Below are positions 27,517 through 56,765 of a stretch of DNA of 64,000 bases, one piece after another. The notes under the pieces are model-generated. The model did no database searches. It was not told the origin of the DNA and was given only the letters and a program-made list of their open reading frames with translations. Every line of letters starts with the position of its first letter. Position 1 is the first letter of the stretch. The position numbers and the translations under genes were made by a program. The stretch is from an uncultured Verrucomicrobiota bacterium. Lineage in GTDB: Bacteria; Verrucomicrobiota; Kiritimatiellia; SS1-B-03-39; UBA6053. The stretch lies in NCBI GenBank assembly GCA_937127435.1, contig CAKZLZ010000104.1, forward strand, positions 1-64,000, given 5' to 3'.

Positions 27517-30500
27517 TCACTGTGTAACTCTCAAGCGGCAGAAGCCCTTACCGGAAATGTCTATGGGAATAGATACCGTGACCGTGTTTCCCACATTTCC
27601 GGGGTTGATGCTGTACTCCGTCCAGGAGTCCGGGCTGAGATCCGGACTGGTTTCAATGGTATAGGTCAGTTCGCTTCTTTCACGGCGGAAGATGAAATTA
27701 AAGGTGCTACTTTCCATTCCCCCGGATGCGGAGGGCAATTCACTTGGATTGGCCATCGCATTACCCGGCATCCCAAGAGCGTATTTCATTAGGTTTGTGA
27801 CCCCGTCATTGAAAGGGATTGAAGAGGGAAGAGCATCATCGCCACTGAGGCTGGCCTCACCGGCCCATGTATCAAAAATGGTAGCGCCGGGGATTTCGGT
27901 GATACGGATTGCATTGAGCAAGGCCCATTCTGTTCCGTTGCCGGTGACGCTGATTTCTAAAACCTCTCCGGTTTGAAGTTGAATGTCGTTCCAACGGAGG
28001 ACTTGAGTTTGACGGCCAGCTGTTACGGCAAAATTTGCGCTGTCATAGGATACGGTCGTCGTCACAGTCGATCCGGAAATTCCGGCTTTGGCAGTGAGAT
28101 CGGCATAGGAGTAATAGGCGGTATCGGCGGCGATGTAGGTTTCGATATTATAGCTTCCGGCGGCGAGGTTATGAATTTTTATGGTATAGGTGCTGTCTCC
28201 GGTTTTGATACGGATGGCACTGTTGGAGGCGGCATCGGTTAACCAAGAGGCAGCATCGGGATCTTCATTGGTTTGGGTTGCGTAATTATTGGCCGTGAAG
28301 AGCCGGCTCTCGGTGCTGCCATAGCCGATGTCAGCGCTGAGTTGCATTTCAATGCCGGTGGCGTTGCTGCCGTCGTCGTAGATAAGGTTCGTCAGGGTGA
28401 GAGGGAGGGTCGTGAGATTTGTGCTGTGGCTCAGGTTATTCCAGTTGCCGCTCTCGCTGGAGCCAAAATTGAACAGCAGGTGTTTTTCGCCGCTGCTTAC
28501 TGTGGGGGTAGTGGTGAAAGTGATCCCATTAGAGAGTTCACTGAAATTTCCGGTGGCATCGCTGGACCGGATTGTGAGGTAATAGGTTGTTCCCGCGTTG
28601 AGATCGCTGAGGGTCAAGGTTTCGGTAGACCCGGCAACGGAGGGGGGTGGCGCATTATCGATAGCGGTGGCGTTATTGAAATCTGTTTCGTCTTGGATTG
28701 CGGTACTGCTGATGCGCAGGTCGTAGGAGGTGGCGGTTCCGACCACACCGTCGTCTCCGGGAGCGGTCCAGGCGAGGTCGACGCTGGTGGTTGTGATGTT
28801 ACCTGTGGTCAGGTCTACGATGGCGGCAGGCGGGGTGCTGTCGGCATTTTTGATGCTCACGGTGGCACTGGTTGAATGGGTGATCCCGAGATCGTCGCTC
28901 AGTTCGACCCAGTAAGTAGCGGCCACGGTTCGTGCAGGAGTGGTCAGGCTGGCGGAAGTGGCGCCGCTGAGCGGGTTGCTGCGGTCGCCACTGACCCCTT
29001 GATACCATTGGTAAGTCAGGCTCCCTGTGCTTTCGGCCAGGACCGAGAGGGTGGTGCTACTGTCAGCTGCGATGGTTATGGCTTGCGGATGCTGGAGCAC
29101 GCGTGGGCCGGTTAAGGGGATCAGATTGATGGTGTGCGAGTGGGCATGGCCGAATTCATTGCTGACTTTGACCCAGTAATTGACGGGTAGTCTGGGGGTT
29201 GTAACCACGAGTGTGGATGCGGTGGCCGCGCTGACGGGACTGCTTTCGTCGCAACTGAAGCCTTGATACCATTGGTAAGTGAGATTCGATCCCTCCGCCG
29301 TGACGGTCAGGGTCTGACTTTCTCCATAGGGAAAGCTGCTGTCCGGGGTTTGGCGGGTGATTACCGGGGCATGCAAACCGGGGGACTGCAAGGTGCTGCG
29401 GATATCTGATTCCGCAACGACCTGGCTGACCTGAGCATTTTTGATGATACGAATGCGATAGGCGTAGGGGGCGCCGGTCGTTGCATCCGTGTAGGTCGTG
29501 CTGCCGGCGGGCAGGGTGGCTAGGGTTTGCCAATCACCGGGGACTTGTTCTTTGACAAAGCGGAAGGCGTCGGCGCGAACTGCGTCGCCTGCGGTAGGGA
29601 ATTCGTTGGTGTAGCTCAGGCTGGCGCCGTCTTGTAGATTATAGCTGCCCATGTAGATCCACTCACCGGCCCGAGACTGGGTGTTGTGGATTTTGCGATA
29701 AGTGTGGTAGAGGTTGTGGGTGCCTCCGGAACCATCGGTCAGGGTCATTTCGAAATTAGACATAGAGCTGTTATCGGGACGACAGATGTAGAGGGCGTAG
29801 CGTCCGGCTTGCCCGGTGAGATCCGGGGTGTAGGTCACGGAAGCATCCGGGTTGGTTGTGACACTTGCCACTTCTTTGTAGTCGCCGTTATAACCATTGG
29901 AATCCGTCACGTCATTCCAGCTTCCGGTGTAGGCTGCGGCTTCTTCATCCAGAATCACATCGTAATCATCCGCTCCCGCGGGCAAAGTCTGCCGTTCGAT
30001 GCGGAAGCCGACGCTTGCGGAGGAGTGATCGATCCAGTTGAGCATGACGGATGTGGTATTGTCCGTTGCGTTGAAACCCGAAGGATGTTCTGTAGATTCA
30101 TCGATTGCCGTGAAACCTTGGCCTGCTACGATCACTTCCGCCAAGCTTTGGGCCAAGTTGGTAAGGGGTTGCCCATCAGCGAAGTCTGTGTCGCGCAAGG
30201 GGGCATAGACTTCCATACTGGCCTGTATCATGGACCCCTCGTATAGAGCCTGCGCTTCATCGGCATTAAGGGCTGCCCGCCAGATCATCATATCCTGATA
30301 ATCGGCCACCGTGGGGGGCGTTAAGCCACTGCCGCCCGGACCACCGAGGACAAATTTCAGCGGTTCGATTTTTTCGTTGATACTGCCCGCGGCTGAACCA
30401 TTGACAAATAGAAGCGTGCGTTCAGAAGCATAGTAATGGCTGAGAAGAATTTCGTGCCACTGTCCGTCGTTCAGAGCAATTCCTGTGCTGATGCTCACAT

Positions 30501-33500
30501 CACTTTGATATTCCAGCAGGCCGTTATTGATGACGAGTGAAGCGGATAGGGGCGCATCCGCATTGTTGGCATCCATGGCCTGAATGCTTGCGAGAACGCC
30601 GTCGGAATCTGTGCGTACCAGAAAACGAAGAGCAAAAGAGTGAATGGGTTGAGCGTAGACGGTATCGGCAGGGCGATAGAGCAGCGGGGAGATGTCGCTT
30701 GGGTTATTGATGTGAAGATAGCCCGGAGCGTTCTGACGGGTGGGTGTACTTTTCCCTTGTTCGAGAGCATCATAGACACTGGGAACATAAGCGTAGAACA
30801 ATTCGAGATGACCGGCGTCATTCGGATGCACCGCGGTACTTTCCGCACCGTATCCAGGGGGGTAGTGGCCGTTGCCATCGTCCAATGCGCCGAGGAAATT
30901 AACACTGGGAACATCCAATGAGTTGAGATGGCGGTTCATACGTTGCACGGCGGCATATTCATCAGGTCCGTATGCATCTTTCATGTAAACCAAGCCAACC
31001 AGTGGGCGGATGCTGTTTTGATAGGCCGTTTGGTTGATGCGCTGAATCCCGTAACGGAAATTTTCATGGGCCCAATAGGCGTCCGCCTCTGGAGCGAGGC
31101 CTTCGTTACCGAGAGTCAGTCCGGTGAAAACGTATCCGAAGTCCACATTATTACTGCCACCGGTGTTCAGAAGGTGGTTGTCTAAATTGTCGCCGGCCTG
31201 GATGGTGTTCCAACCGGGAATGCCGCGGTTGCGCAAGGTCCAACCGTTGTTTGCGAGGAGTTCCCGGGTCAGGTAGGAGTAGCCTTTCATCCATTGTTTG
31301 ATGTCGTCATCGTCGTCACCGGGAGCATAATTTCCCTGGTCATGGGGAGCGATGGCTGGTTCGTAATCGGCGGCATAACCGAAAATGGTGGAGGATCCGT
31401 AGTGTGCGATATTTTTATTTGGAAGGGGGCTGACTTGCAGATAAACTGTATCCGAATCCACACTGCCGTTCACATCTGTAACCTGCACCCAGTAGGAGTT
31501 GTTGCTGCTTAAGGCGCTGGTCGTAATTTCAGAAGAAGTGGCTCCGTTGATGGGTGAGGAGGTGTCGCCGCTGTCTCCGAGATACCATTGGTAGCTCAGG
31601 GAACCGGCATCACCGCTGGCGGAAATGGAAAGATTCGCACTTTGTCCGTTGACCAGTGTCTGACTCATCGGTTGGGTGGCGATCACGGGCGCTTCTCCGG
31701 TGGGGCTTCCATCTGTATCCAGCAGGAGACGGACATTGTCGATACCCAGGTAGGTGTAGGGGTTTGCGGGATCAAAGGTATTGACGTTTTGACCAAATCC
31801 TTCGCCGGAAATCGCAATTACCAAGCGGGTGTTACTGCCGTAATCCGTGTAGGTCCAGGTTTGGGTTGTACTGTGAGTCGTCCAGTCGGTTTCATCGCCG
31901 ATGTCAAATTCAGTATCAGAATAATTAAACGCAATATTCCCATCACCGGTGACGGTCATGGCGGTGCCGCTGATCAGTGAACCGGCTTGTGAGTAGGTGC
32001 CGTTGTTGTCTGCGAGGGCGCAGCGAATCATAGCTCCGCTATCGTAGGCGGCTGCAGGATCGGTGCGGTCGACTTTGTAATCGAACTGCAGTGAGTAGCT
32101 GGCACCCGGAGTGAGCCCCAGCGCTTGCGGGTCTATCCATGTTACAATGGTTTGGGCTGCCGTTTGACTGTAGTTTCGTGCAATTTGCAGATATCCGTCG
32201 TTGTTTCCGCCACTGGCGATTGAACGGACGTAGTTGCCACTGATGCCATTGGAGGGGTAGGCGTACCAATCGCTATTTGTAGATGCAAGGTTGATGGCAT
32301 GAGGTAGCGTGTTATCGCTTGCGACATCAAATTCTCCCAGGGTGTACAGGGTCGGCGGGGCTGCGGTTGTGACCGAGATTGAAGCGGACTGCAGGCTGTC
32401 GTTGCCTTCCACATCGCGGCTGCGAATCGAAAAATAGTAAGGCGTTGAAGCAGATAGTCCTGCAAAGGTATAAGACTCCGCACTGCCCGGTGCAGAGGGT
32501 GTTAGTAAACCTGCTGCAGGGGTGGCATTTTCGAAATCCCCGGCGGTGGTGATGGGGAAGGTACTGATGCGCAGGTCATAACTTGCCACGCCGGAATCGT
32601 CATCGGTAGGGGCTGTCCAGGTCAGTTCAATGGCGCTGTCACTCACACTGGTCGCAACCAAGTCGTTGATCGTTGCGGGTGGGGTGGTGTCGGGTACATC
32701 AATAAAGATACTGAAATCCGCGCTGGAACCGGAGCTGTCGCTGTCGTCTACTTGGGCGGTGAAGGAGAAGGTACCGTCTGCAGTAGGCGTTCCGCTGAGG
32801 GCTCCATCTTCAGCCAGTATAAGTCCGCCGGGTAAGGTTCCTGCGGTCAGGGTCCACGTGTAGGGCGGGATGCCCCCGGCGGCGATCAATTGTTCTGAAT
32901 AGGCAGTGCCGACCAGACCATCGGGGAGGGTCGCGTCTTCGGTGGTGAGCCCGGGTGGCGCGCTGACGCTGACATCGAAGCTGGTGCTGGCGGAGAGTCC
33001 TTGCTCATCCGTGACCGTGGCGGTGAGGGTGGCGGTTCCGGTTTGGTTAAAGGTGGGAGTCCATTGGACGTGGCGGTGTGCACCGACTTTGATTACGGTG
33101 ATTGCACTGTCGGGGATTAAGGTTTGATTGCTGGAGGCCACGCTCACTTCAAGTACAGTTTCGCCGGGTATCGTGGATTTATTGTCGGTATAAAGGTCGA
33201 AAACGCGCAGTTCCAACGGATCGCCGGGGGTGGCGAAATAGGAGTTTTGATCGGCGGGTTGGCTGATCACCGGCACTTTGTTGTCTTGCGCTTTGGGGCC
33301 GCAGTAAAAGCTTTTCGTGACGTTGGAGTTTCCGTCGCTCAGGTTGAGGGTGATGGTGGCGCCGCCGGTTACCGGTTTGACGCGGACATAGCGAAACTGT
33401 CCGGAGCCACCGAGAAATATATTTTCATCGGGAATAGCGGTGGTGTTGCTTGAGCTTGCTGTGAGTAAAAGGTCTCCGGGATCGGTGTCGTAGTCATAAA

Positions 33501-35298
33501 CACGGACAGAGATGCGGCCGGACCAGGATCCTTTGGAGAAGATAGCTCCGGGAAAAGTCGTTGCTTCATCGCCGACGAAGAAGGGGGCTTCGCTACCGTC
33601 TCCGCGTGATTCGATGGTCACAGCCGTGGTAGTGCTCATGCTGCCGTCGCTAACTTTTAACAGCCCCCAGATGATGCCCGCTGTCGGCGGCAAGTCGATG
33701 TCGAGGCTGCGGGTGGCTCCACTGCCGGTGGGAGTAACCGTGTAGGTGCCCGAACTGATACTCACCGTCCGGTTGACCTGTATCCAGGTCAAACTGAGGG
33801 TGTTGGCATCGCTGTCTGCATCACTGATACTCACCGGGATGGAAAGGCTGGAACCGGGGGCGCCGCTTAACGTGCCAATGGGAGCGATGGTCGGCGCGTG
33901 GTTGCCGGCCTCCTCATTTTCATAAACCTGCACGATGCGGCGTGGTCCGACGCATCGCTCACCGTTGCCGGCTACCGCCACAGGAAAGAGAGCGTAGACA
34001 CCCGCTTCGCCCGAATTAAAGCTGTAAGTATGTTCAAATGGAGCAGAGTTGTCGGTGGCGACTTTGACCCCATTTGCGTAGAAATCGACCGAAGTGACAG
34101 ATGAGAAATCGATCGGATCGACACTCATGCGGATACTTTGCCCGGTGACAAAATAGTTGGGGTACCAGGAATTAAATTTGGTCAGCACGTCCGTACCAAG
34201 ATCGTCATTGATCAGATCCGGGAACGTGACGAGTAGATCCTGATGGCCGAGGCTGAAGCCCGTTGCCCAAAAATAGGCAAGATCGGTATTGGCAATCCAG
34301 GAGTGGGTACCTTCGCTGCGGTCGAAGTCCGCGGCCGGACCGAAGTAGGGATCGGAACTTTGCCAATCCTTCAAGAAGTTCACATAGTTGTCATCGTCGT
34401 AGTCGAGTGGGTCGGGTCCATCTGTCTGTACAACCGCGAGTCCATGTTCCCCGCGCAATCCGGTGTTGGGATCAAGCGCGATCAGGTTTACGGGGCCCAG
34501 TTTGGGATCCTTTCCTGCGACCCCGGTCTGATAATCGTAACGGAGCGGAAGCATAAGGCTGAAAAACCCTATGGCTTCTTCGAAGGCGTGGCGTTTGGTG
34601 GCATGGGTTTGACGGGCTTCAACCGCACACATCCAAAGTGCACCCCGCTCAATCATGCTTCGAATGGAAGCTTCTCCATATGCATGATAGCCTTGGTCCC
34701 ATCGGTCTTTGTCCCATTCTCCCCAGCGAAAATAGCCTGGGACCGCTTTCACTGCAGCTGGATCAGACGCCTCATCGACATCCGAGAAAAAGCGGGTACT
34801 CTCCACTACGAACGAGATGACCCGGTCCGGTACATCGTAGGCCAGACTGAAGGCCGAGCTGCCTCCGGCGGATTCGCCGTATGTCAACAAGGGGACGTAT
34901 TCCAGCTCCGGATATATCAAGGAGCCGAGGGGTTGGGCCGCGTATTCAGCCAGTGCGTTGATCGTGGTAGTGCCGGCTGCATAGGTGTCGTTGGTGCCCA
35001 GATAGGCAAATCCGTTTTCATAGAGCCATTTTGACCAGCGGTCGTTGGCTGCATAGGCGGTATTCCCTCCCAGCCCCGGATAGGAGACCACTACGCCCCT
35101 GATGGCGTTTAGCGGGGTACCGTTGTGTGAAGGAATCGAAAGCACGTAGTCATTGGAACTGAATGAGTGGCTGTGGCTTTCAATGGCGTAACCTTCATTA
35201 AAGGTCTGTGCCGAACTGAGGGCCGGCAGCAGGCCTAACAACCAAAAAACAATAATTACAAACCGAAGCGGGAGAGAGGGCAGAGACGTGTTTTTCAT
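27517..35298 (-). CDS. Giant multidomain secreted protein with two esterase-like domains
   Basis: A 2593-residue protein with a signal peptide (residues about 1-30, LPALSSAQ). Approximate layout: alpha/beta-hydrolase (30-480) with nucleophile elbow YGESAGGSSAF; cadherin/Ig-like and putative-Ig domains (485-900); FN3 (905-1000); a beta-sandwich of carbohydrate-binding appearance (1010-1210); Ig-like; an SGNH/GDSL-like hydrolase (1310-1530; IAHYGSSTIFG, RNRGIPGWNT, AVHPNDAGHLE); LamG-like (1545-1740); a golvesin-type C-terminal domain (1830-1980; GRYALYICRPDN, VRADAFRFVK); two Ig-like repeats with YQWYQGxSxDxSxP; FN3; another beta-sandwich; and a C-terminal module (TWAGEASLSGDD..DGVTNLMKYALG) seen also in the divergent giant gene. 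It probably removes ester groups from a polysaccharide at the cell surface. Domain limits are by eye. Confidence 0.78.
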   Translation of the reverse strand: MKNTSLPSLPLRFVIIVFWLLGLLPALSSAQTFNEGYAIESHSHSFSSNDYVLSIPSHNGTPLNAIRGVVVSYPGLGGNTAYAANDRWSKWLYENGFAYLGTNDTYAAGTTTINALAEYAAQPLGSLIYPELEYVPLLTYGESAGGSSAFSLAYDVPDRVISFVVESTRFFSDVDEASDPAAVKAVPGYFRWGEWDKDRWDQGYHAYGEASIRSMIERGALWMCAVEARQTHATKRHAFEEAIGFFSLMLPLRYDYQTGVAGKDPKLGPVNLIALDPNTGLRGEHGLAVVQTDGPDPLDYDDDNYVNFLKDWQSSDPYFGPAADFDRSEGTHSWIANTDLAYFWATGFSLGHQDLLVTFPDLINDDLGTDVLTKFNSWYPNYFVTGQSIRMSVDPIDFSSVTSVDFYANGVKVATDNSAPFEHTYSFNSGEAGVYALFPVAVAGNGERCVGPRRIVQVYENEEAGNHAPTIAPIGTLSGAPGSSLSIPVSISDADSDANTLSLTWIQVNRTVSISSGTYTVTPTGSGATRSLDIDLPPTAGIIWGLLKVSDGSMSTTTAVTIESRGDGSEAPFFVGDEATTFPGAIFSKGSWSGRISVRVYDYDTDPGDLLLTASSSNTTAIPDENIFLGGSGQFRYVRVKPVTGGATITLNLSDGNSNVTKSFYCGPKAQDNKVPVISQPADQNSYFATPGDPLELRVFDLYTDNKSTIPGETVLEVSVASSNQTLIPDSAITVIKVGAHRHVQWTPTFNQTGTATLTATVTDEQGLSASTSFDVSVSAPPGLTTEDATLPDGLVGTAYSEQLIAAGGIPPYTWTLTAGTLPGGLILAEDGALSGTPTADGTFSFTAQVDDSDSSGSSADFSIFIDVPDTTPPATINDLVATSVSDSAIELTWTAPTDDDSGVASYDLRISTFPITTAGDFENATPAAGLLTPSAPGSAESYTFAGLSASTPYYFSIRSRDVEGNDSLQSASISVTTAAPPTLYTLGEFDVASDNTLPHAINLASTNSDWYAYPSNGISGNYVRSIASGGNNDGYLQIARNYSQTAAQTIVTWIDPQALGLTPGASYSLQFDYKVDRTDPAAAYDSGAMIRCALADNNGTYSQAGSLISGTAMTVTGDGNIAFNYSDTEFDIGDETDWTTHSTTQTWTYTDYGSNTRLVIAISGEGFGQNVNTFDPANPYTYLGIDNVRLLLDTDGSPTGEAPVIATQPMSQTLVNGQSANLSISASGDAGSLSYQWYLGDSGDTSSPINGATSSEITTSALSSNNSYWVQVTDVNGSVDSDTVYLQVSPLPNKNIAHYGSSTIFGYAADYEPAIAPHDQGNYAPGDDDDDIKQWMKGYSYLTRELLANNGWTLRNRGIPGWNTIQAGDNLDNHLLNTGGSNNVDFGYVFTGLTLGNEGLAPEADAYWAHENFRYGIQRINQTAYQNSIRPLVGLVYMKDAYGPDEYAAVQRMNRHLNSLDVPSVNFLGALDDGNGHYPPGYGAESTAVHPNDAGHLELFYAYVPSVYDALEQGKSTPTRQNAPGYLHINNPSDISPLLYRPADTVYAQPIHSFALRFLVRTDSDGVLASIQAMDANNADAPLSASLVINNGLLEYQSDVSISTGIALNDGQWHEILLSHYYASERTLLFVNGSAAGSINEKIEPLKFVLGGPGGSGLTPPTVADYQDMMIWRAALNADEAQALYEGSMIQASMEVYAPLRDTDFADGQPLTNLAQSLAEVIVAGQGFTAIDESTEHPSGFNATDNTTSVMLNWIDHSSASVGFRIERQTLPAGADDYDVILDEEAAAYTGSWNDVTDSNGYNGDYKEVASVTTNPDASVTYTPDLTGQAGRYALYICRPDNSSMSNFEMTLTDGSGGTHNLYHTYRKIHNTQSRAGEWIYMGSYNLQDGASLSYTNEFPTAGDAVRADAFRFVKEQVPGDWQTLATLPAGSTTYTDATTGAPYAYRIRIIKNAQVSQVVAESDIRSTLQSPGLHAPVITRQTPDSSFPYGESQTLTVTAEGSNLTYQWYQGFSCDESSPVSAATASTLVVTTPRLPVNYWVKVSNEFGHAHSHTINLIPLTGPRVLQHPQAITIAADSSTTLSVLAESTGSLTYQWYQGVSGDRSNPLSGATSASLTTPARTVAATYWVELSDDLGITHSTSATVSIKNADSTPPAAIVDLTTGNITTTSVDLAWTAPGDDGVVGTATSYDLRISSTAIQDETDFNNATAIDNAPPPSVAGSTETLTLSDLNAGTTYYLTIRSSDATGNFSELSNGITFTTTPTVSSGEKHLLFNFGSSESGNWNNLSHSTNLTTLPLTLTNLIYDDGSNATGIEMQLSADIGYGSTESRLFTANNYATQTNEDPDAASWLTDAASNSAIRIKTGDSTYTIKIHNLAAGSYNIETYIAADTAYYSYADLTAKAGISGSTVTTTVSYDSANFAVTAGRQTQVLRWNDIQLQTGEVLEISVTGNGTEWALLNAIRITEIPGATIFDTWAGEASLSGDDALPSSIPFNDGVTNLMKYALGMPGNAMANPSELPSASGGMESSTFNFIFRRERSELTYTIETSPDLSPDSWTEYSINPGNVGNTVTVSIPIDISGKGFCRLRVTQ

Positions 35299-35520
35299 GT
35301 CTCTATATCCTACAGCCTATAAAATTTTCGGACAATTCGTTCGGGCGTATGAATCCTGTGATTTAGCGAATTATTTTGAATTCAGGCCCTTGGCTTTCCC
35401 CGAGAGCGTTCCCGTTCAATTTTTAGCAGAAGATAAACAGGTTCACTTGTGGGTGGGTTGTGGCGAAGGCGCTGCAGATGGTATCCTGATTCCTGTAATG
35501 AGTACCCAAGGAAATTAGAG
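35299..35520. promoter_or_regulatory. Divergent promoter region of the two giant genes
   Basis: These 222 bases separate the start codons of the two divergent giant genes and must hold both promoters. No convincing -35/-10 pair or operator palindrome stands out. A plus-strand open frame (35288-35518) has a protein-like composition (QFLAEDKQVHLWVGCGEGAA) but no recognisable domain or ribosome-binding site. Confidence 0.4.
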
Positions 35521-38500
35521 ATGCTTGATGTCATAAGATATTGTTTCGGAGGATTGTTGGTTGGGCTGCTTCCGCTTTTCGGACAGTCGATCAATAGCGA
35601 ATTCGATGTCGACCGATATGACACCACGGCACCAAACGATGTTACCGGCGCCGAAATTCCCTACACTGTGTCGATTCCCACACGTAACGGTATTGCCGTT
35701 GATAAGGTCAAAGCCATCCTGATTGCTGCCCCGGGGATCAGCAGCACTTTTCCGCACGTTTCCTACACCGCCGACAGCCGTTGGCACAAATGGCTTCATG
35801 CCAATGAACTGGCCTACTTGGACATCGGTGATGAATACGAGCATTCGGACAGCATTATTCAGGCGCTTGATCAGATCGCCGCCAGTAGTGGGTATCCCGA
35901 GCTCGAACATGCGCCGATCATGATCTTCGGGGAATCCGCCGGCGGCAGCACCGCCTTTTACTTCGCCCGGGATGTCCCTGCGCGTGTCATCGCCTTTGCC
36001 ACCGAACACACGCGCTATTGGGACGACCACATCCCGGCAGAAACCTATCAGGTCCCTGCCTATTTCCGCTGGGGAGAATTTGATGACATGCGCTGGTCCG
36101 ACGGCTACTGGGATATCGATGGCGACAATATCAAAGACAAGCTCAACAGGGGAGCGCTTTGGATGACCGCCGGCGAGGACCGCCAGCAACATGCCACCAA
36201 GCGCTATGCGCTGGAAGAAGCTATCGGCTATTTCTCGCTGATCCTCCCCCTGCGCTACACTTATGAAGAAGGCGTGATGGGGAAAGACGCGAAACTCGGC
36301 CCCGTGACCTTGAATACCCTTGTCCGTGAAGACGGTTATCTGGGAGAAATCAATATGGGCGCCGTCCAGACGCCACGTTACGACATGAATTCCAATCTCC
36401 TGAAAGACTGGGAGTCGACCGATCCTTATTACGCCCCCTATGCCACGGCCGAACGCAGCGACAAGCTGGAGCACAATTGGATGCCGAACTCCAAAATCGC
36501 CGCCTTCTGGGCAACGAAGATCACCAACGGCGAGCACGACCTCGATGTTCGTTACTTAGACACCCTTGAAGATGACTACGGCCTGGATACCCAGGTGAAT
36601 CGCGGCAGCTACTTCCCCAATACCTTCACCACCGATCAGCAGGTGCGGATCGAGGTGATCGCGAGCGATTTCCCCAACATTTCGGAAATGCAGTTTTGGA
36701 GGAACGACCAGTTGGTGGCCACGGATGCGACGCCGCCATACACCCATGCCTACACCTTCACCGAGTGGGAGACCGGCGTGCATTTCATTTACCCGGTCGC
36801 GATTGACGAAAACGGGCAGCGTTGCGTGGGTCGCCGCCGCGTGATTCAGGTTTATTCCAATACCTACGCTAGCAACACCTCACCCACCGTCAGTGATATC
36901 GACCCCTTGCTCGGCGAACCGGGGACGACCCTCGAAATTCCCTTCACCATTGGCGATGCCGAGACCAGCGCGGACAGCCTCAGCCTAAGCTGGGTCAAGA
37001 TCAACAATACCGATGATTTTAGCTCATCGGATTACACCGCCAGCTTCAGCGGGTCGGGGGCGAACCGTGTCCTCAACCTGACGCTCCCTAACGCCAACGG
37101 CATTCTCTGGGGAATGGTTCAAGTCAGTGACGGTGATATGAGTGTGAACGAATACGTGCAGGTACAAATGGGTGCCAACGACGGATACGCCCCGCCTTTT
37201 TTTGTGGAAGGTGAAAAGCTCATCTACACCGGTCCAGTGTTTATGGGCGGGAGCTGGTCGAAGCGGATATCGCTGCATGTGTTTGATTACGATACGCCGG
37301 TCGAGGATTTAACCATTATCGCGACCTCCAGTAATCAGGGAGTGCTTCCGGATGAGAATATCATCGTGGGTGGTGTGGGGCGCTTCCGCTACATTCAAGT
37401 CAAACCGCTTTCCGGCGGATATTGCGCGGTAACGGTTGAAGTCAGCGACGGGCACACCAGCACGACGACCACCTTCGGCGTGCCGTCAAAAACACTCATC
37501 AATTACCCCCCTGTCATTTCTGACATTCCCGACCAAACGGTAAGCGCTGGCCGCAGCTCCGACCCGATTGAGGTACGGGCCTATGATCTACAGACTCCTG
37601 GAGAGGCGCTGATTGGCGGAGAAACAACGCTCAGCCTGACTGTGACTTCCGACGACCAGTCGCTCGTTGCCGATGGGGACATCAGCGTTGTGTCTGTAGG
37701 CGAGCGTCGCCGAATTAAGTTTCAGCCCTCATCGAGCAATACGGGCACCGCAACGCTGACGGCCACGATCTCCGACGAAGGCGGCTTGACGGCTACCGAT
37801 ACTTTTACCGTCACCGTGAATGCCGCGGCGCCTTTGTCCGTCGCGGGCGGAAACCTGGGACCTGCATTCTTAGGTCAGGATGTGGCGGAGATCCTCACCG
37901 CTACGGGCGGGATCGGGCCGCTGAGTTGGTCACTTGCAGGTGGCAGCCTGCCTACGGGTTTGACCCTGAATGCCGATGGTTCGTTCTCGGGGACGCCTCA
38001 ACAGACGGGAGATTTCACCTTCACCGCAAGCGTGAGCGATGCCAACAGCGATACGGATTCCGCGCCGTTTACCTTACACGTGGACGCCTGGCTACCCTTA
38101 CCTGGCAATATTACCCTGACCGCCGAAAATGATTCCACGGTTACGATGAGTTGGAGTGACGATGCCACAGGCGAAACCGGCTATGAAATCCAGCGGAGTC
38201 CGCGCAACCAGGTTGCCTGGAGCACCGTGACCACCACAGGCGCCGACGCCACCAGCTACAACGATGCGAGCGTTACTGCCGGGGAACAATACAACTACCG
38301 CATCCGCACCCTGGGCGACGGGCCAAGCCCCTACAGTGAGGTGTTTTTTGTTGAGGTGCAGTCCGCACCGAGCATCATCACCCAACCCCAAAGCACTGTC
38401 GCGGTCTATCTCACCACCCCCAGCATTGAAGTTACCGCATTGGGCGGGGCGCTCACTTTCCAATGGTATGAAGGACTGTCGGGAGACACCTCAACCCCCC

Positions 38501-40743
38501 TCAGCGGCGAAACCACCAAACGCCTAACCATCGACAATATTGAAAACACCCGCCACTTCTGGGTGCGCGTCAGCAATGGCGTCGGCTCCATCGATTCAGG
38601 CACCGCCACCCTCACCGTCAACAAGACCACTTGGCCGATTTACCTGGACTTTGGCAGTGTCGTCACCCCAAGCCCGGACGGGGAAGGGCGTCACTGGAAT
38701 ACTATGGATTCTCCTAATGGCACACGAGACGGGTTGATTGATTCCGCCGGGGATTCCACTTTGATCAGCTTCTCGTCCAGCGGTTTCTTCAAGGTCAGTA
38801 CCTACAGCGAGAATCCCGTGAGTCCGTTGTATCCTGACAGTGCAGTGGATGATGTGCTATGGGCTCACAACTCGAATGAAAACTCATCAACAAATCCGCT
38901 TGCGGCCATCACCATCAGTGGCCTGGAAGCCGGGGAGGACTATGATCTGAAAATTTTTGCTACAGCTGACAATGATAATGGTTATTACACCACGACCTAC
39001 ATCATTGATGGAGAGAGCCAAACCTTCGACCCGGGAGGCAACACTTCGACCTTCGTAGAGTTTACCAAGCTTATCGCGGATGCATCGGGTGAAATCCGCA
39101 TGGAAGTGGTCACCGGCGAATATAGCCCCGGCTTTATCAATGTGATGGAAATCCATAAATCGCTGGCACTGGAACTCTCCGAGACAGATGTGAGTGTGCC
39201 CGAGGGGTCGACTTCCACCTTCGATCTTCGCCTTAACCGCGCCCCGGATACCGATCAGACCGTCAATATTGCGCGTGCCTCCGGCGATGCAGACATCAGC
39301 CTTGGCAGTTCAGCCTCTCTGACCTTCTCTCCCGCAAACTGGGACCAGTGGCAAACCGTCACCCTGCAGGCCGCCGAAGACGCCGACACCGATGACGGAA
39401 CCGCCATTTTTGAATGCGCGGGGACGGGCGTCGACACGGTCACGGTTAACGCAACCGAAGCGGACAATGACTTGGCCATCGAAGTTGACCAAACCAGCCT
39501 GACCGTTGGTGAAGGCGGCAGCGCCAACATTCAGATCCGCCTCAATAGCGCTCCGCTGACCACCAGCACGGTCAACGTCTCCCGGTTGAGCGGGGATGCA
39601 GACATTTCGGTTGGGATCGAATCCGAACTCATTTTTACTCCCGAGAATTACTATAGCTGGCAGACCGTCTTTTTGCATGCCGCGCAGGATGTCGATAACG
39701 AGAATGGTTCCGCCACGATCCGTCTGAGCGCCACGGATGCAGCAGATGTCGATGTCGTGGTGACCGAGGTGGATGACGACTACGCTGTGGTCGCCGAGGG
39801 TTTGCTGGCTTCCTGGGAACTGGATGCCATCACCAACAGCCCTCTGGTGACCGAAGTGAACGCCGGATTTTTGGCGGACGGACTGAGTGCAGGTCTGCTC
39901 ACCCATAGTGATCCCGCCGAGATGCGAGGTGTGAACGATGCGCTGAGAGCGATCGATAATAATGAGCCCAATCTCGCCGCCTCTATCACCGCCGGAAATT
40001 ATTTCAAATGGACGTTGCAGGTGGATGCCGATCACGTGGTCCAGATATCAGATGTCGTCCTGCGCTCGAAAATTGATGGTTCAACGATGTCGCTGGCGCT
40101 GCTGTGTGATGCGATCGGTTTGACGGCCGGCGATGCGTTGGAAACCATTCCCCCCGGATTACAGATGTCGGACATCAGTATGACCATGGACCCGGTGTCC
40201 GGATCGGTGGAGTTCCGCGTCTATGGCTATGGAACAAGCAGTGCGTATGACGGGATGCTGATTGGCCATTCATACAAAACAGATGGGCTTAACGATATCG
40301 AGATCTATGGACAGGTCGTCTATTCGTCGCCACCCCCCACGACGTTCGCCGGATGGGCCGCGAGATACAGCCTGGCGGCCGATTCGACTCTAGACAGCGA
40401 CACCGACGGGGTGGTCAATTTAATGGAATATGCCTTACGGCTGAATCCAAATCTGAATCAGGGAATCGGGATGCCGACCGGCGGAGTGGTGGAGGAGGGA
40501 GGGCAACTGTACCAGACCTTCCGCTTTCGCCGCAACCTGGAGGCGACCGATTTAACCTATGTTCTCGAAGGAGCGGATGTCTTGGGTGATCCAAGTGCCT
40601 GGGAGCCTCTCACCATCGCCCCGGCGGATGAAACGGTGGTCGACCCGGATGTCGACGGCGACGGAAAGGTGGAACTGATAGAATTGAAAGTCAATATAAA
40701 CGATAAAACCCGGCATTTCCTTCGTTTGGAGGCTGTTAGGTAG
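35521..40743 (+). CDS. Giant multidomain secreted protein with N-terminal alpha/beta-hydrolase
   Basis: A 1740-residue protein; the start at 35521 gives a signal peptide (MLDVIRYCFGGLLVGLLPLFG) and drops a 24-residue extension without one. Residues about 20-470 match the first domain of the divergent giant: FGESAGGSTAF nucleophile elbow, PAYFRWGEFDDMRW, HATKRYALEEAIGYFSLILP. Then follow Ig/cadherin-like units, a putative-Ig domain (LGQDVAEILTATGGIGPLSW), FN3, an Ig-like unit with FQWYEGLSGDTSTPLSG, a beta-sandwich, two Calx-beta-like repeats (VSVPEGSTSTFDLRLNRAPD; LTVGEGGSANIQIRLNSAP) and the common C-terminal module (LDSDTDGVVNLMEYALRLNP). It lacks the SGNH domain of its neighbour. It is more GC-rich than neighbouring genes (36 of 60 bases at 36601-36660), suggesting a different history. 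Likely a surface esterase. Confidence 0.8.
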   Translation: MLDVIRYCFGGLLVGLLPLFGQSINSEFDVDRYDTTAPNDVTGAEIPYTVSIPTRNGIAVDKVKAILIAAPGISSTFPHVSYTADSRWHKWLHANELAYLDIGDEYEHSDSIIQALDQIAASSGYPELEHAPIMIFGESAGGSTAFYFARDVPARVIAFATEHTRYWDDHIPAETYQVPAYFRWGEFDDMRWSDGYWDIDGDNIKDKLNRGALWMTAGEDRQQHATKRYALEEAIGYFSLILPLRYTYEEGVMGKDAKLGPVTLNTLVREDGYLGEINMGAVQTPRYDMNSNLLKDWESTDPYYAPYATAERSDKLEHNWMPNSKIAAFWATKITNGEHDLDVRYLDTLEDDYGLDTQVNRGSYFPNTFTTDQQVRIEVIASDFPNISEMQFWRNDQLVATDATPPYTHAYTFTEWETGVHFIYPVAIDENGQRCVGRRRVIQVYSNTYASNTSPTVSDIDPLLGEPGTTLEIPFTIGDAETSADSLSLSWVKINNTDDFSSSDYTASFSGSGANRVLNLTLPNANGILWGMVQVSDGDMSVNEYVQVQMGANDGYAPPFFVEGEKLIYTGPVFMGGSWSKRISLHVFDYDTPVEDLTIIATSSNQGVLPDENIIVGGVGRFRYIQVKPLSGGYCAVTVEVSDGHTSTTTTFGVPSKTLINYPPVISDIPDQTVSAGRSSDPIEVRAYDLQTPGEALIGGETTLSLTVTSDDQSLVADGDISVVSVGERRRIKFQPSSSNTGTATLTATISDEGGLTATDTFTVTVNAAAPLSVAGGNLGPAFLGQDVAEILTATGGIGPLSWSLAGGSLPTGLTLNADGSFSGTPQQTGDFTFTASVSDANSDTDSAPFTLHVDAWLPLPGNITLTAENDSTVTMSWSDDATGETGYEIQRSPRNQVAWSTVTTTGADATSYNDASVTAGEQYNYRIRTLGDGPSPYSEVFFVEVQSAPSIITQPQSTVAVYLTTPSIEVTALGGALTFQWYEGLSGDTSTPLSGETTKRLTIDNIENTRHFWVRVSNGVGSIDSGTATLTVNKTTWPIYLDFGSVVTPSPDGEGRHWNTMDSPNGTRDGLIDSAGDSTLISFSSSGFFKVSTYSENPVSPLYPDSAVDDVLWAHNSNENSSTNPLAAITISGLEAGEDYDLKIFATADNDNGYYTTTYIIDGESQTFDPGGNTSTFVEFTKLIADASGEIRMEVVTGEYSPGFINVMEIHKSLALELSETDVSVPEGSTSTFDLRLNRAPDTDQTVNIARASGDADISLGSSASLTFSPANWDQWQTVTLQAAEDADTDDGTAIFECAGTGVDTVTVNATEADNDLAIEVDQTSLTVGEGGSANIQIRLNSAPLTTSTVNVSRLSGDADISVGIESELIFTPENYYSWQTVFLHAAQDVDNENGSATIRLSATDAADVDVVVTEVDDDYAVVAEGLLASWELDAITNSPLVTEVNAGFLADGLSAGLLTHSDPAEMRGVNDALRAIDNNEPNLAASITAGNYFKWTLQVDADHVVQISDVVLRSKIDGSTMSLALLCDAIGLTAGDALETIPPGLQMSDISMTMDPVSGSVEFRVYGYGTSSAYDGMLIGHSYKTDGLNDIEIYGQVVYSSPPPTTFAGWAARYSLAADSTLDSDTDGVVNLMEYALRLNPNLNQGIGMPTGGVVEEGGQLYQTFRFRRNLEATDLTYVLEGADVLGDPSAWEPLTIAPADETVVDPDVDGDGKVELIELKVNINDKTRHFLRLEAVR

Positions 40744-40804: not shown

Positions 40805-42574
40805 ATGAAACTGATATTCTATATACTAACAACACTTATTTTTATGGTGGCGAATGTTCGTGCCAATGAAACGCAGGAAACCTCGGAAACGAATCACGAG
40901 CTCAAGCGGTATCTGGAACAGCACCCTGAGTCCGACACCGACCGTGACGGTGTGCTTGGCTGGTGGGAAAAAGAGCAGCATCTCTCGGCGGATGCCCTGG
41001 AGGAATTAGTCGAGGGAACGGTTCATAAACATGTCCGCATTCCCATGCGTGATGGCTATGAACTCATGGCGGAGGTTTTTTTACCAGCGGATGACGGGAA
41101 ACCAACTCCTGTCGTGGTAACTCGTGCTGGATACGGACGTTGGCGTGCAGCCGGGTATGCAAAGTCCGCAAATAAAGATGGTATGGCTTTTGTGACCACA
41201 CAGGTGCGCAGGTATGACGGCGGAAAACATGAGAAATTTAAGGATTCGGAAAGTTCGTTCGTACAGATTGATGACATGTATGACATCTGTGAATGGCTGG
41301 CGGAGCAACCTTGGTGCAATGACAGAATTGGCACCATCGGTGGCTCTGGAAACGGTTTTGCTGGGAGTATGGGCTTCTGGTCGTTGCACCCTGCCTATAT
41401 TGCCTGCCGCGCCGGAAACACGGCAGGGAATGTTAAATATTATTGGGGCTATCAGAACAGCGTTGCCACCTACCAAATTCGCTGGGTTAACTCCACGATT
41501 GGAAACGTTCAAGGTAGCAAACGGCCAACGCTGCCCAAACATGGCTACGATTATGATTCCTGGATCAAATGGATAACCGAAAGGGCAAAAGACAGCGACA
41601 ATTACTATTTTAATGGTACCGGTTGGTATGACCCGTTGTTCCAAGCTGCCCTTGACGATTTTATGGCACTCCAGCATACCGGAAAGGCTTATGTCGACAT
41701 TGAGCCACGCGGTCATGGCGGCACAAGTGGTTTCGGCGAGAAAAGGAACTTCAAGTTCCCGATTCATAATGGCCCTGCTGGAAAGTGGGGTGTCGGTACT
41801 TTTCCAAGTTTCAAAGACCTGCTTAAGGGTAAAGAGCCCGAGAATCCGAAGTCTCTGATCCGGTATTTCCTGATGGGCGATGTCAGAGACAGTAGTGCGC
41901 CCGGGAATGAGTGGGTATCCGCAAACACCTGGCCTCCGGTATCAACCAAAACTAATTTATATTTTACCGAAGGCGGTAAGTTGTTGAGCTCGAAGCCAAC
42001 AGGCAATGCAAGAGTCAGTTATACCTATGACCCGAAGGATCCGACCCCGAGTTTCGGAGGGTATTACTCCTGGAATCCCAAACTTTCCGGTCCACACGAC
42101 CAGAGCGAATTGCGTAAGCGCGAGGATGTGCTTTACTTTGAAACGGACCCGCTTCAAGCACCTGTCAATGTGACTGGACGCATTTCCGCAAAACTTTTCA
42201 TCAGCAGTAGTGCAAAAGACACGCAGTTTATTGTGAAACTGGTGGATATTTATCCGGATGGTTATGAGGCAATCATGCGCGAAGCCCCGTTTATGGCGCG
42301 TTATGCAGAAGGCTATGATCAACCAGCCCCCCTGGAGGGCGGAAAGGTCTATGAACTCGATGTGGATATGTGGAGTACTGCAAATGTTTTCAATAAAGGG
42401 CACAAAATCGGGGTCATCGTGTGCAGCGCTGCCAAGGAATCATACGAAGTTCACCCCAACACCTATGAGCAGATTGATCTTGCTGATTGGGGCGAACAAT
42501 CGGTTGTCGCTGAAAATATAATTCATCTTTCAGCCAAGCACCCGTCGCACATCACCCTGCCGGTTGTGGAGTAG
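40805..42574 (+). CDS. CocE/NonD-type (peptidase S15) alpha/beta hydrolase, secreted, copy B
   Basis: A 589-residue protein with signal peptide (about residues 1-20, VANVRA) and an exceptionally good ribosome-binding site (AAGGAGGT). A short helical N-terminal insert contains ESDTDRDGVLGWWEKEQ, a D-x-D-x-D-G loop that may bind calcium. The S15 core follows: AGYGRWRAAGYAKSANKDG, nucleophile elbow IGGSGNGF with Ser181, candidate His in EPRGHGG, and a C-terminal jelly roll (VTGRISAKLFISSSAKDTQF, VKLVDIYPDG, GHKIGVIVCSA). It is paralogous to the product of 23945 but does not share its operon partners: here the creatininase-family gene follows 27 bases later, so the two are probably co-transcribed. 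The substrate is unknown. Confidence 0.85.
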   Translation: MKLIFYILTTLIFMVANVRANETQETSETNHELKRYLEQHPESDTDRDGVLGWWEKEQHLSADALEELVEGTVHKHVRIPMRDGYELMAEVFLPADDGKPTPVVVTRAGYGRWRAAGYAKSANKDGMAFVTTQVRRYDGGKHEKFKDSESSFVQIDDMYDICEWLAEQPWCNDRIGTIGGSGNGFAGSMGFWSLHPAYIACRAGNTAGNVKYYWGYQNSVATYQIRWVNSTIGNVQGSKRPTLPKHGYDYDSWIKWITERAKDSDNYYFNGTGWYDPLFQAALDDFMALQHTGKAYVDIEPRGHGGTSGFGEKRNFKFPIHNGPAGKWGVGTFPSFKDLLKGKEPENPKSLIRYFLMGDVRDSSAPGNEWVSANTWPPVSTKTNLYFTEGGKLLSSKPTGNARVSYTYDPKDPTPSFGGYYSWNPKLSGPHDQSELRKREDVLYFETDPLQAPVNVTGRISAKLFISSSAKDTQFIVKLVDIYPDGYEAIMREAPFMARYAEGYDQPAPLEGGKVYELDVDMWSTANVFNKGHKIGVIVCSAAKESYEVHPNTYEQIDLADWGEQSVVAENIIHLSAKHPSHITLPVVE

Positions 42575-42601: not shown

Positions 42602-43321
42602 ATGAAAACGAAGCACTGCTTGGAGCGTATGCGACCCGCACAAATTGATGCGGAAAAAGAAAATATGGCATCGATCTATGTTCCAATAGGAGCCATCGAA
42701 TGGCACGGGCGACATAACGTTGTCGGGCTCGATTCGCTTAAAGCGCACGCCCAACTCTGTCGCGTCGCCGAAGAAGCGGGTGGGGTGGTATATCCACCGA
42801 TCTATACCGGATGGCTCCCCGGGAACAACGATGACCACACCTATATGGTGAGCGCTGAAACCTTGTTTCAAATACTCATGGAGCTTCTCGTCGGCTTTGA
42901 GCGCGACGGATGGAAAAAAGCGATCCTGCTGGGCGGGCATTATCCGAACTACCACTTTGCGGCCAAACAGGTGGCGGAACAATGGGCCACCGAAGAACAT
43001 ACCCTGGAAATTCTTCCGATGGTCGAAAACCGCATCAAAGAAATAAGGGGGGATCATGCGGCTCTTGATGAAACCTCTATGATGCTTGACCTCTATCCCG
43101 AAACCGTTGATCTCGACCGCATCGGGGGACGCGAGGCCGCCGAAGGAACCGTGGATGATAAAAACGATTGGCTCGAAGCGCCGAAAGATCATCCCTGTCG
43201 CGGAATCATTGGCGTCGACCCGCGCCTGTCAACCGTCGAACATGGACGTGAAGTCAACGACACAATCGTCGCCGCCCTCGTTGGATGGGTTCAAACCGGC
43301 AGCATCGATCTTGAATGGTAG
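42602..43321 (+). CDS. Creatininase-family amidohydrolase, copy A
   Basis: A 239-residue protein. The metal-binding motifs of the creatininase family are present: GAIEWHGRHNVVGLD (Glu33, His35, Asp44), LGGHYPN (His113; the usual form is NGHGGN) and GDHAALDETSMM (His152, Glu157; the usual form is HAGxxETS). Family members hydrolyse cyclic or linear amides such as creatinine, or modify cofactor precursors (MftE). There is no signal peptide, so it is cytoplasmic. The replacement of GGN by YPN is shared with its paralogue at 55925 and marks a subfamily. It follows an S15 hydrolase gene closely. The substrate is unknown; an amide released from the polysaccharide is one possibility. Confidence 0.85.
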   Translation: MKTKHCLERMRPAQIDAEKENMASIYVPIGAIEWHGRHNVVGLDSLKAHAQLCRVAEEAGGVVYPPIYTGWLPGNNDDHTYMVSAETLFQILMELLVGFERDGWKKAILLGGHYPNYHFAAKQVAEQWATEEHTLEILPMVENRIKEIRGDHAALDETSMMLDLYPETVDLDRIGGREAAEGTVDDKNDWLEAPKDHPCRGIIGVDPRLSTVEHGREVNDTIVAALVGWVQTGSIDLEW

Positions 43322-44346: not shown

Positions 44347-47300
44347 TTATACATCCTCCGGCAGGAGCCACTTTATGCGGACAATTCGGAATTGACGGCC
44401 AAAAGGAGTTCCCGGGGTTGGTTCGGTTGGGTTTCCCGCTTCAGGTTCAACTGGATCGGCTATCCGCTGTACTACGGCTTCAAGCCATGCCCGGGCGCTG
44501 GGTTCTGTTTGGCCGGGAGCAATGAAATCGCCATAGCAACGAATAAGAAAGGTGTCTCCTCGGGCTGTGAGGGCCGGACCGATCATGGCAAGAAGGTCGC
44601 CTTGGGTTACAAAACCCGGAGCGTGGGAAAGTAATTGCCCGCGTTCGCCGGCCGGGGTGCCCGCCAGATGTTCCATGTCCAGATAATGCCGTGATTCACT
44701 GAGAACCCTCATAGGTTCTCCAGTATCGGTCACTCGGAAAACACGATCGTTACTGTCGGGGTTGACAATGGGGGTAAGGTTATCGTCGAGATAATTCACG
44801 CCCCCATTGATGCCTGAAACATTAATGGCCCGTTGGAGTGTTCCGTTGAGACCGATCAGGCCCGGCAAGGGGTCGTAGGCGTTGTCAATGGTTCCCGCTG
44901 TGCTCGACGATAATGCCTGTGTTCGTGCCTCGCTCCAGTGGCCCCCTGTATCATCGGGGGCAACCAGGCGGCGGTTGACAAAATCCGCGACGGAATAAAA
45001 AGGACCTCGCAGACGGATCTCATCAACAATGCGTTCGGCAAGCTGTTCTATCATGGGATCTGTCAAATAACGAAAGCCGCTTAACACCCGGGAGTAATCC
45101 CGAGTGGAACTGGTTGCCCCGAAGGTGTTCCCGTCTTTGTCATCATAACTAAAGTCCACCCGGGCTGCCAGAGGGTTCAGGGAGCGGGAAATGGGAATGG
45201 TGTCCTCCGGGTTTTCTTCCCCGTCTCCGGATATTTCAAGGTCTCTAAAGGCACTAAACAGCGCTTTCCATGCGTCAACCGAAGTGGAATTGATATTTAG
45301 CGCGCCTCGATTCAGCAGATAGAAAGCGGACTGATCAAAATCACGGACATCGGAGGCATCAAAATTCGCCAGGGTGGAATCTTGGATGGAGCCCGTCGTA
45401 CGGAAAGCCATCCGGCCATTTGGCAGGGGATCCCCGTTGCTTACATCAACCGTCCCCGTGGAAGGAATTGAGGAGAGGTAATAGCGGTCCCAGAGAGATT
45501 CGTTGAGCAAATACGATAGATCTACATACTGATTTTGAGCATCGTTTGGAAAAGACCTAGGAGATCGGTCCTCAAAACTTCCAAAGGTCCCGTTAGCCGC
45601 CCCGATGACGCGGCCGATACCGGCGATCCGTTCCCGGTCGACGTAGGGGCTGGCCTCGGAGTTGCCAAGCGGGAATGCGGGTTGCCAGACATATGGGGAG
45701 AGATTAACCTGTTGGAAGCGTCCCAGCGAGAGCACTTCACTTTCCGAGCGTTTCACCAGTCGGGTAGAAAGTTGGGAAAGGCCCTTGTTTCCTAAGCTGT
45801 CTATATCCTGATGGGTGATGAGGACGAAGCCCCGGGCGTTTCCGTTACTGAAATCAACAATTTTTTCATCGGGCCCATCCCAGTCAATTGAATTGCTGGT
45901 GCTACCGCTCAGGACCCCCCCGCTGGTGAAATACATACGAGTGAACGCATCTGAGTTGTTGACCGAATTTTCGGCCCTCCCTCCGTCGAGATCGTGCGGG
46001 GCATCCAGTTGGGCGGCGTTTAGGTTAAAACTGGCAAACCCCCGGAAATATTTACTTAGACCTTCGTGTTGGCTCGCTAACCACGCTTTAAGAGCGAATG
46101 GCTTCAGGTAAGCTTCATGAAATGCAAAAATGGGGAATTCCTGCTCCTGAGGTTCGCCTGACTTCTGACGGGTCCGCCAATCTGCAAGATCATAGACCCT
46201 CCGCCAAGTGCTGGGGTCGTCCGTTTTTGCATAGGGCCCCGGCGTATATTGACTCCCGTACCTCGGGTTGGAATTCCAACCCTGAATGAGGCCGAACTCA
46301 TAATGTTTCCAGAGTTCTGTTCCATTGGCTGACAGCTCTGCAGCGTTTGTGGTTACAAAGTTGTCATTGGTATAGCCAAAAAACCGAACCGTATCCCCTG
46401 AAACCGGCAGGGTGGTTCCGCCCGGAGCCTCCACGAATTCGGCGACATCGAAATAAAAGCTGGCGGGGAAATCGGGTTCAAAGCCATTTGAAAGATTGAC
46501 GATTGGATTGGAAGCATCAACTTTCTGTTCTGTATCGACGGTAAAAATCCGGGCTTCTCCAGGGTCAAAGGAGGTTGTGAATTTAAAGGTGATCCATGTA
46601 GCGTTGGGATCGTCGATATTGCTTTTATACCAATTATCACGCCCGTCCCACGGTGATAACTGATATTGGGGGCGGTTATTGCCGGAATCCCAGATGGTAT
46701 TGAAACTTGAATGAGTGCTTGTAAATCCCGTGGATCTTAGACGGTGGACATAGTACCCGTTTCGTTCAAACCCATCACTGATGTTACCGGGTGTGGGGTC
46801 GACTTTCCCTGCGGTGGCGACTCCAAAACTCCAAAAATTCCAGTTGGTCCGGACTCGGAGGGTGTAAGCTGTATTCTGAAGTCCGGCATCGTATGGATTC
46901 CAGAGGGTGACGACGGGAAGCCAGTGAAGTTGAATTTTTCCCGCATTGTGGGTGACCGCAAGATGAAATCGAAGATGGGTGAGGATAGGTGCGGCTTCCG
47001 GGGTTACGGTCACGGTACCGCCAGTGGCACCGGTGGCTTCATTTTGGTACCACAACCGTAATTGGCCCCATTGGGGAAGGTTGGATGTGGTTGACGGGAA
47101 TCCGGAATTGCTTGCGCCGAAGCGCGGATCGCTTCCAGAGTACAGGGATGAATCCAGGATGGGATCCATGTTGTTCAATGCAGTGCCATTGTCGAGATAG
47201 CGGGTGAGATCTTTTCGCAATCCTCCGATGGCGGTGTCGGTCAGCAGACTGGCGGAGTGGGAGGTCAGTTCATGAAAGGTGCGTTTTATGAGGCTGTTCT

Positions 47301-48282: not shown

Positions 48283-48400
48283 GGGTAGAGTGTACCCCAA
48301 GGGGTTAAAAAGATTAAACCTTCGGAAGCGCATATAGTTGCGTTGTTTGATTTTAATGATGGGATTGTTTAACAAATATAGATGGATAGGCATATTTATT

Positions 48401-55924: not shown

Positions 55925-56644
55925 ATGAAGCATCAACTAGAATTTCAATATCCTCATCAGCTCAAGACCATTCTTTCTCAAACTCCGTGGGTTTATATCC
56001 CTGTGGGTGCCATTGAGTGGCATGGGCATCATAATGTTGTTGGGCTCGATGGGGTGAAGGCTCATGGTCAATTGCTACGTGTCGCCGATGCCGTTGGTGG
56101 AGTCGTATACCCCCCCATTTACACAGGGCATTACACAGGAGACCGGAAGGCTCCATTCACTTACATGGTATCTCAATCATCGTTATACCAACTTTTGAAG
56201 GATGTTTTATGTGGACTGGAGAAAGATGGATTTCAAAAGGCGGTACTGTTAAACGGGCATTACCCTAATCATATCTTTATCGGTTACGAGTTGATGAGAG
56301 AATGGAAAAATGAAAATCACAGTATGGAATTACTCTCTATTCGTGAAAGTAATTTTGAAAGAATCAGCGGTGATCATGCAGGGAAAGACGAAACCTCAAT
56401 GATGCTAGATTTGAATCCTGAGTGTGTTGACTTAGGTATGATACAAACAGACGATGAAAACGCCGCTTTAGAAGAAAAAGGTAATTGGCTGGAAGAAGAT
56501 GACTCTCATCCTTTACGCGGGGTGGTGGGTGTTAATCCACGCTCATCCACATCCGAGTATGGGAGTGCATTAAACAAGCGATTAGTAAATGCGATCAGTG
56601 GTTGGATTAAAAATGGTGAAATTGCTTTGGAATATGAGAAATAG
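55925..56644 (+). CDS. Creatininase-family amidohydrolase, copy B
   Basis: A 239-residue protein, exactly the length of copy A. The same ligand set is present: GAIEWHGHHNVVGLD (Glu31, His33, Asp42), LNGHYPN (His112) and GDHAGKDETSMM (His151, Glu156). The YPN variant of the NGHGGN motif is again seen. It starts 23 bases after FGE/PQQ copy B, so they are very likely one operon; copy A instead follows an S15 hydrolase. No signal peptide. The composition follows its AT-rich neighbour rather than copy A. The substrate is unknown. Confidence 0.85.
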   Translation: MKHQLEFQYPHQLKTILSQTPWVYIPVGAIEWHGHHNVVGLDGVKAHGQLLRVADAVGGVVYPPIYTGHYTGDRKAPFTYMVSQSSLYQLLKDVLCGLEKDGFQKAVLLNGHYPNHIFIGYELMREWKNENHSMELLSIRESNFERISGDHAGKDETSMMLDLNPECVDLGMIQTDDENAALEEKGNWLEEDDSHPLRGVVGVNPRSSTSEYGSALNKRLVNAISGWIKNGEIALEYEK

Positions 56645-56765
56645 GGTAACGACTTACGCCTTGCTAAAAATGGATATGAAATCGACTTTCGCGTAAAAGG
56701 TACCCTTCGGATATACCCCCTTATCTTAAGAATAAATGTTTTGTAATTTTTAAATGGAGATCCTT

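Follow-up and report, generated by a model that had tools for sequence, protein, structure and literature searches.

Two giant proteins encoded by divergent genes of an uncultured Verrucomicrobiota bacterium, here called A and B, are old, distant paralogues that each begin with a predicted alpha/beta-hydrolase and continue into a long arm of Ig-like and fn3-type domains. We consider it rather probable that both are serine esterases, secreted and encoded in a polysaccharide locus, which would remove ester-linked groups. The initial annotation had also proposed two different esterase-type folds within the single chain of A, and this is supported, with an alpha/beta-hydrolase fold predicted at the front end and an SGNH domain recognised by profile further along.

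A Divergent Pair of Giant Genes

The pair lies in a window of 64,000 nucleotides (the whole stretch of DNA analysed) carried by a 74-kb contig. The genome comprises 5.2 Mb in 236 contigs, and the two closest named relatives are metagenome assemblies from Verrucomicrobiota. Protein A (27517..35298, minus strand) is encoded by an uninterrupted reading frame of 2593 codons for amino acids, and protein B (35521..40743, plus strand) has 1740 residues when read from the ATG at 35521, or 1764 when read from an alternative upstream GTG at 35449. Both uninterrupted frames and their divergent orientation were thus correctly placed at the outset, and the secreted character assigned to both giants agrees with the signal-peptide-like N-termini seen on reading the sequences, which in A include a hydrophobic signal-like segment. 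In the 222-base stretch between the two starts, a single terminator-like site was seen, against a mean of 0.2 (sd 0.5) in shuffles; neither a sigma-70-like promoter nor an inverted repeat of at least 10 was found in it.

The motifs GESAGGS(S/T)AF, FRWGE and RQxHATKR..EEAIG(F/Y)FSL are each present in both proteins. The shared part had been put at about 450 residues, but in a BLASTP alignment of 916 columns, residues 51-960 of A match B at 42% identity, so that roughly 910 N-terminal residues are common to the two chains, about twice the extent first seen. The middle parts, said to be very different, are so only past about residue 950, and what had been taken for a 450-residue hydrolase divides into an alpha/beta core some 220 residues long, an element that follows this core, and an Ig-like domain of the Big_7 type. 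Behind the hydrolase and Big_7, the shared block contains further Ig-like, He_PIG and fn3-type domains (Pfam), the last of which begins before the block ends at residue 960 of A (rest of the block, 32419..33903, minus strand).

The Front-End Hydrolase

Scans of full A and B at E<=1 leave the front-end domain without any Pfam or NCBIfam match, and the five close family members scanned singly give only faint matches to Hydrolase_4 (0.15) and Abhydrolase_1 (0.061). In PDB sequence searches with the front end, the Big_7 part was the sole confident match and the hydrolase was unmatched. An AlphaFold model built from the five sequences has a mean pLDDT of 54, with residues 164-326, which include the acid and the His of the putative triad, below 50. 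Searches with this model returned the esterase 4ns4 as the top Foldseek match (E 1.8e-7) and the BT_4077 feruloyl esterase 7xrt as the top VIA-align match (Z 14.7, rmsd 3.4, 199 aligned), and XynY (1gkk) scored Z 13.5. The best Z-scores in the VIA-align list, in which the absence of a family does not exclude that family, belong to feruloyl esterases and dienelactone-hydrolase-type enzymes. The matches (Foldseek E 1.8e-7; VIA-align Z up to 14.7) span about residues 10-228 of this partly confident model, and the core, at about residues 37-255 of A (34534..35190, minus strand), is on this modelling an alpha/beta-hydrolase. The resemblance to CE1 lies in the predicted fold; the Pfam, NCBIfam and PDB sequence searches matched no characterised esterase.

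The predicted nucleophile of A is Ser143 in GESAGGS (34870..34872), the predicted catalytic acid is Asp196 in FRWGEWD (34711..34713) and the predicted catalytic His is His232 in RQTHATK (34603..34605), all on the minus strand; their aligned counterparts in B are Ser139 (35935..35937), Asp188 (36082-36084) and His224 (36190-36192), all on the plus strand. The three residues are invariant in all five close members. In a wider alignment of 21 rows, no row departs from Ser or His, and the acid position holds Asp in 17 rows and Glu in four; 16 of the 21 rows are distant and all were picked by profile match, so part of the motif conservation is built in, and for several of the local profile matches the acid and His lie beyond the match or close to its end. 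In the model, the three residues follow predicted strands 110-114, 161-165 and 195-199 in canonical order, and Ser and His each lead straight into a helix. Loss of the Asp or His had been named as evidence against an esterase, and at the sequence level both are kept in the first domain. The conserved residues and their order point to a putative Ser-Asp-His triad at the front end, with the model too uncertain at the acid and the His to fix its geometry.

Behind the core comes an element of the GWL...W(L/M)P type. Its strict pattern occurs in seven of the 21 rows, with looser forms seen by eye in most others. The Big_7 Ig-like domain lies directly behind the hydrolase module of A (33991..34149, minus strand; Pfam E 3.6e-6, above the cut-off).

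The SGNH Domain and Remaining Modules

Past the block shared with B, A continues (all features on the minus strand) with a module at residues 983-1196 (31711..32352), which has no Pfam match at E<=1 and recurs by BLASTP in both copies, a and b, of the giant protein in another genome, G180. An Ig_7-type domain (31423..31692; Pfam) precedes the SGNH/GDSL hydrolase domain at residues 1295-1517 (30748..31416). Protein A scores E 2.1e-6 and 28.8 bits against Lipase_GDSL_2, for which the cut-off is 32.9, and all six relatives pass; PDB profile matches include GDSL proteins, TesA and an acetyl xylan esterase. The domain holds Ser1303, Gly1362, Asn1398 and His1491. In the alignment with its relatives (A3), Ser, Gly and His are kept in all seven rows and Asn in six. 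The Block V Asp, three residues before the His, is absent from A, where Thr stands in its place, and is present in five of the six relatives, so this domain would have to act as a Ser-His dyad. The available portion of one source describes SGNH enzymes in which the Block V Asp is missing or displaced, and Ser-His dyads in CE2 and others (PMC9487903). Structure prediction domain by domain, suggested earlier as a check, gave a partly confident result for the front-end core and a poor one here, where folding from a single sequence reached a mean pLDDT of 33; the SGNH assignment rests on profiles.

The LamG-like and golvesin-type domains that had been read in A were likewise recovered. The LamG/ConA-like domain behind the SGNH domain (30127..30723) is borderline, with Laminin_G_3 at E 7.6e-6, slightly under the cut-off, and is also indicated by the same pairing in relatives. 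Golvesin_C (E 5.5e-12) exceeds its curated cut-off and forms an insert (~29545-29970) that splits an fn3 domain (29386..30087), a nesting that becomes apparent when four fn3 domains lacking any insert are aligned with it. A module at residues 2271-2469 (27892..28488) matches no family at E<=0.01.

The repeats of B that had been named Calx-beta are indeed tandem repeats (39160..39789, plus strand; 47% identical), but the name fails, as Pfam searches with whole B and with both repeats found no Calx-beta match at E<=1; comparison of the repeats with the PDB gave nothing useful. The C-terminal DGVxNLMxYAL module said to be common to both proteins (27520..27888, minus strand, in A; 40333..40740, plus strand, in B) is weakly similar between them by BLASTP (30% over 220 columns, E 2e-10). 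A search of the own genome found it at six places, A and B included, at E<=0.01, which makes it weak as proof of kinship between A and B; it looks like a general terminal module.

A Rare Family

The close family is very rare. The own genome holds two copies of the front end, and a family-level search detected relatives in four of 11 genomes at E<=0.001, with the own pair alone strong. A class search gave matches in seven of 345 genomes at E<=1e-8, and a phylum sample in 11 of 387 at E<=1e-5, where close relatives were confined to the own genome and G180. A pattern scan of genome contigs from 84,980 species returned two loci, L029, taken from its length and match to be the same contig as G180:C55, and L030, the genome of which (G601) has one copy. 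Together with the own two, the copies in G180 and at L030 bring the close family to five members, spread over three genomes of Verrucomicrobiota. No front-end relative was found in the viral contigs searched.

Protein B is 60% identical to the L030 protein over 1610 columns, tandem repeats included, and a tree joins the two at 100/100, the order of the remaining three members not being settled. A recent duplication was considered as the origin of the pair and rejected, because B is closer to the L030 protein than to A (42%) and the nearest relative of the A front end is a G180 copy.

The SGNH domain was found in six of 387 genomes in the phylum search. There was no SGNH relative in G180 among the matches listed at E<=1e-5, and the contig of copy a stops at residue 1250, ahead of the SGNH position. 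One further genome (G146) was matched by both the front-end and the SGNH searches, on different contigs, which leaves A as the only chain seen with both domains.

Genomic Neighbourhood

An S15/CocE-NonD family hydrolase (40805..42574, plus strand; Pfam Peptidase_S15 and PepX_C, NCBIfam CocE_NonD above cut-off) adjoins B on the same strand, in keeping with the S15 hydrolase first noted beside the pair, and is one of two such hydrolases in the window. Carbohydrate genes of the window comprise GH88, GH92, GH94, an alpha-amylase-type gene and two sulfatases, the latter about 19-20 kb from B, and the regulators are LacI- and AraC-type with sugar-binding-type domains. PEP-CTERM proteins and a CstA gene are also present. 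Two proteins that join FGE-sulfatase-type and PQQ/BamB-like beta-propeller parts in an unusual-looking fusion flank the pair (20427-23828, minus strand; 52398-55901, plus strand). Two creatininase-family genes (42602-43321 and 55925-56644, both plus strand) stand next to S15 and FGE-PQQ genes, and the region therefore seemingly holds partly duplicated gene sets. The pseudopilin-like gene of the window encodes a 1348-residue protein (44347-48393, minus strand) with a pseudopilin-like N-terminus, which matches GspK and Verru_Chthon cassette protein A far below cut-off. A secreted-looking protein of 941 residues (56754-59579, plus strand), matched weakly by Glyco_hydro_42 (E 0.011) and by no NCBIfam model, is possibly an unassigned glycoside hydrolase.

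Sulfatases accompany the family in three genomes, two of which are sulfatase-rich. In G180, giant copy b, a sulfatase and giant copy a follow one another on a single strand, separated by 15 and about 100-126 bases. The vicinity of L030 contains two sulfatases, an SSF symporter, a DHDPS-type gene, an L-rhamnose mutarotase-like (rhaM-like) gene and a LacI regulator. Sulfatases number 69 in the own genome, six in G180 (~4.1 Mb) and 77 in G601. By density, about 0.85 would be expected in the 64-kb window, where two were found, and about 0.02 per 12 kb in G180, where one lies between the copies, a comparison chosen post hoc. On these totals, the G180 arrangement alone is unlikely by simple density. 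On reading of its sequence, the G180 sulfatase shows no obvious signal peptide at its start, an awkward fit for joint extracellular action.

Proposed Function and Alternatives

We propose that A and B are very large predicted serine hydrolases, secreted or surface-bound, in which an alpha/beta-hydrolase with a Ser-Asp-His triad would come first and the long Ig/fn3-type arm would space and present this catalytic domain. In A, the same arm would also bear the SGNH-LamG part as a further esterase module, which might work with a Ser-His dyad in the manner of CE2 as described in the available part of the literature (PMC9487903). The dedicated de-esterification complex suggested at first found no support in these results as a physical assembly. 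Removal of acetyl or other acyl groups could then let the hydrolases and sulfatases of the region degrade the polysaccharide. The glycan targeted is probably both sulfated and acylated; heavy acylation is plausible in view of the neighbouring sulfatases, GH88, GH92 and GH94. More tentatively, the front end, with its GWL...W(L/M)P element and Big_7 domain, may found an unnamed verrucomicrobial esterase family, of which A and B could be a rare co-acting pair for one sulfated, acylated polysaccharide, with A combining two mechanistically unrelated esterases on an arm of more than 2500 residues.

The alpha/beta-hydrolase fold also fits peptidases and lipases, since the front-end model also drew matches to DPP4, FAP and lipase chains, as well as to acylaminoacyl-peptidase and a PHB-depolymerase-like protein. 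With two S15/CocE-NonD genes close by and no Pfam or NCBIfam family on the front end, this domain might be a serine peptidase or a lipase/polyester hydrolase that the Ig/fn3 arm anchors to particles or cells. We judge this unlikely, given that the top Z-scores go to feruloyl esterases and dienelactone-hydrolase-type enzymes, that the Pfam scan shows no DPP4-type propeller domain and that carbohydrate genes abound in the region. The bulk of each chain is of Ig, fn3, LamG or Golvesin type, and the Asp that most relatives retain is missing from the SGNH domain of A, as might be expected if the giants were mainly adhesins or carbohydrate-binding scaffolds in which the SGNH domain, and perhaps the front end, had turned into binding domains. 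Binding alone, however, makes no such demand on the front-end Ser and His, which are kept throughout the alignment despite great divergence, and dyads lacking the Block V Asp are known from CE2 and other SGNH enzymes in the portion of the source available (PMC9487903), so that we find a mainly binding role distinctly improbable.

It is harder still to credit that the sulfatases and glycoside hydrolases lie near the pair by chance and that its function is an unrelated one at the cell surface. Two sulfatases in 64 kb are near expectation for a genome with 69, and the window also contains the pseudopilin-like and CstA genes, but the sulfatase-poor G180 has one of its six in the gap that separates its copies, in the same orientation as both, the post hoc comparison given above.

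Comparison With Known Systems

CE6 enzymes are SGNH-type, and CE1 enzymes are alpha/beta-hydrolases. These folds are partly supported by the available portion of one source (PMC9487903). CE6-CE1 acetyl-feruloyl esterase fusions of Bacteroides ovatus and Flavobacterium johnsoniae act on xylan, and intramolecular synergy is reported for one of them in the part of the study accessible to us (PMC7110780). They resemble A, as far as that part describes them, in having two distinct esterase domains in one protein of a polysaccharide locus (PMC7110780). They differ in that their domains are recognised CE1 and CE6 domains directed at xylan, whereas the alpha/beta domain of A comes first and has no family model, its SGNH domain is a GDSL_2-type relative, and many Ig/fn3 modules are present.

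Relatives of the SGNH domain occur in six SGNH-LamG proteins of other Verrucomicrobiota (L031-L036), in which it is 30-38% identical to that of A and is followed by a LamG-like stretch. Their reading frames, inspected by eye, show no front-end hydrolase family. In two of them (L033 and L036), the LamG-like stretch appears by eye to be broken by an additional module, very roughly 200 residues in size and starting near VDFGP/IDFGP, which would be a further case of nesting. The front-end core shares its predicted alpha/beta-hydrolase fold with BT_4077 and XynY, which are filed under CE1, but identity in the structural alignments is 9-14% and there is no sequence-profile match.

A further parallel is the enzyme Fll4, which reportedly combines a CE6 with two CE1 domains, is said to be xylanolytic and comes from a phylum other than that of the host of A and B. 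Fll4, from the marine Flavimarina sp. Hel_I_48, has three CE domains and is, like A, a chain with several esterase domains, here in a marine polysaccharide degrader, according to the portion of the report available (PMC12247016). Titles and abstract openings of the literature on verrucomicrobial esterases and fucoidan deacetylation gave no plain description of the front-end family. As CE6-CE1 fusions and a three-CE enzyme are already known, the principle of fused esterases is not new; what is new is the front-end family, the size of the chains and their pairing. With a strongly conserved putative triad and no family model, the front-end family offers itself to the search for new enzymes with which Verrucomicrobiota degrade polysaccharides, and its fused and paired layout is a case in which unrelated esterase folds might act in synergy, comparable to that described for CE6-CE1 on xylan in the accessible part of that study (PMC7110780).
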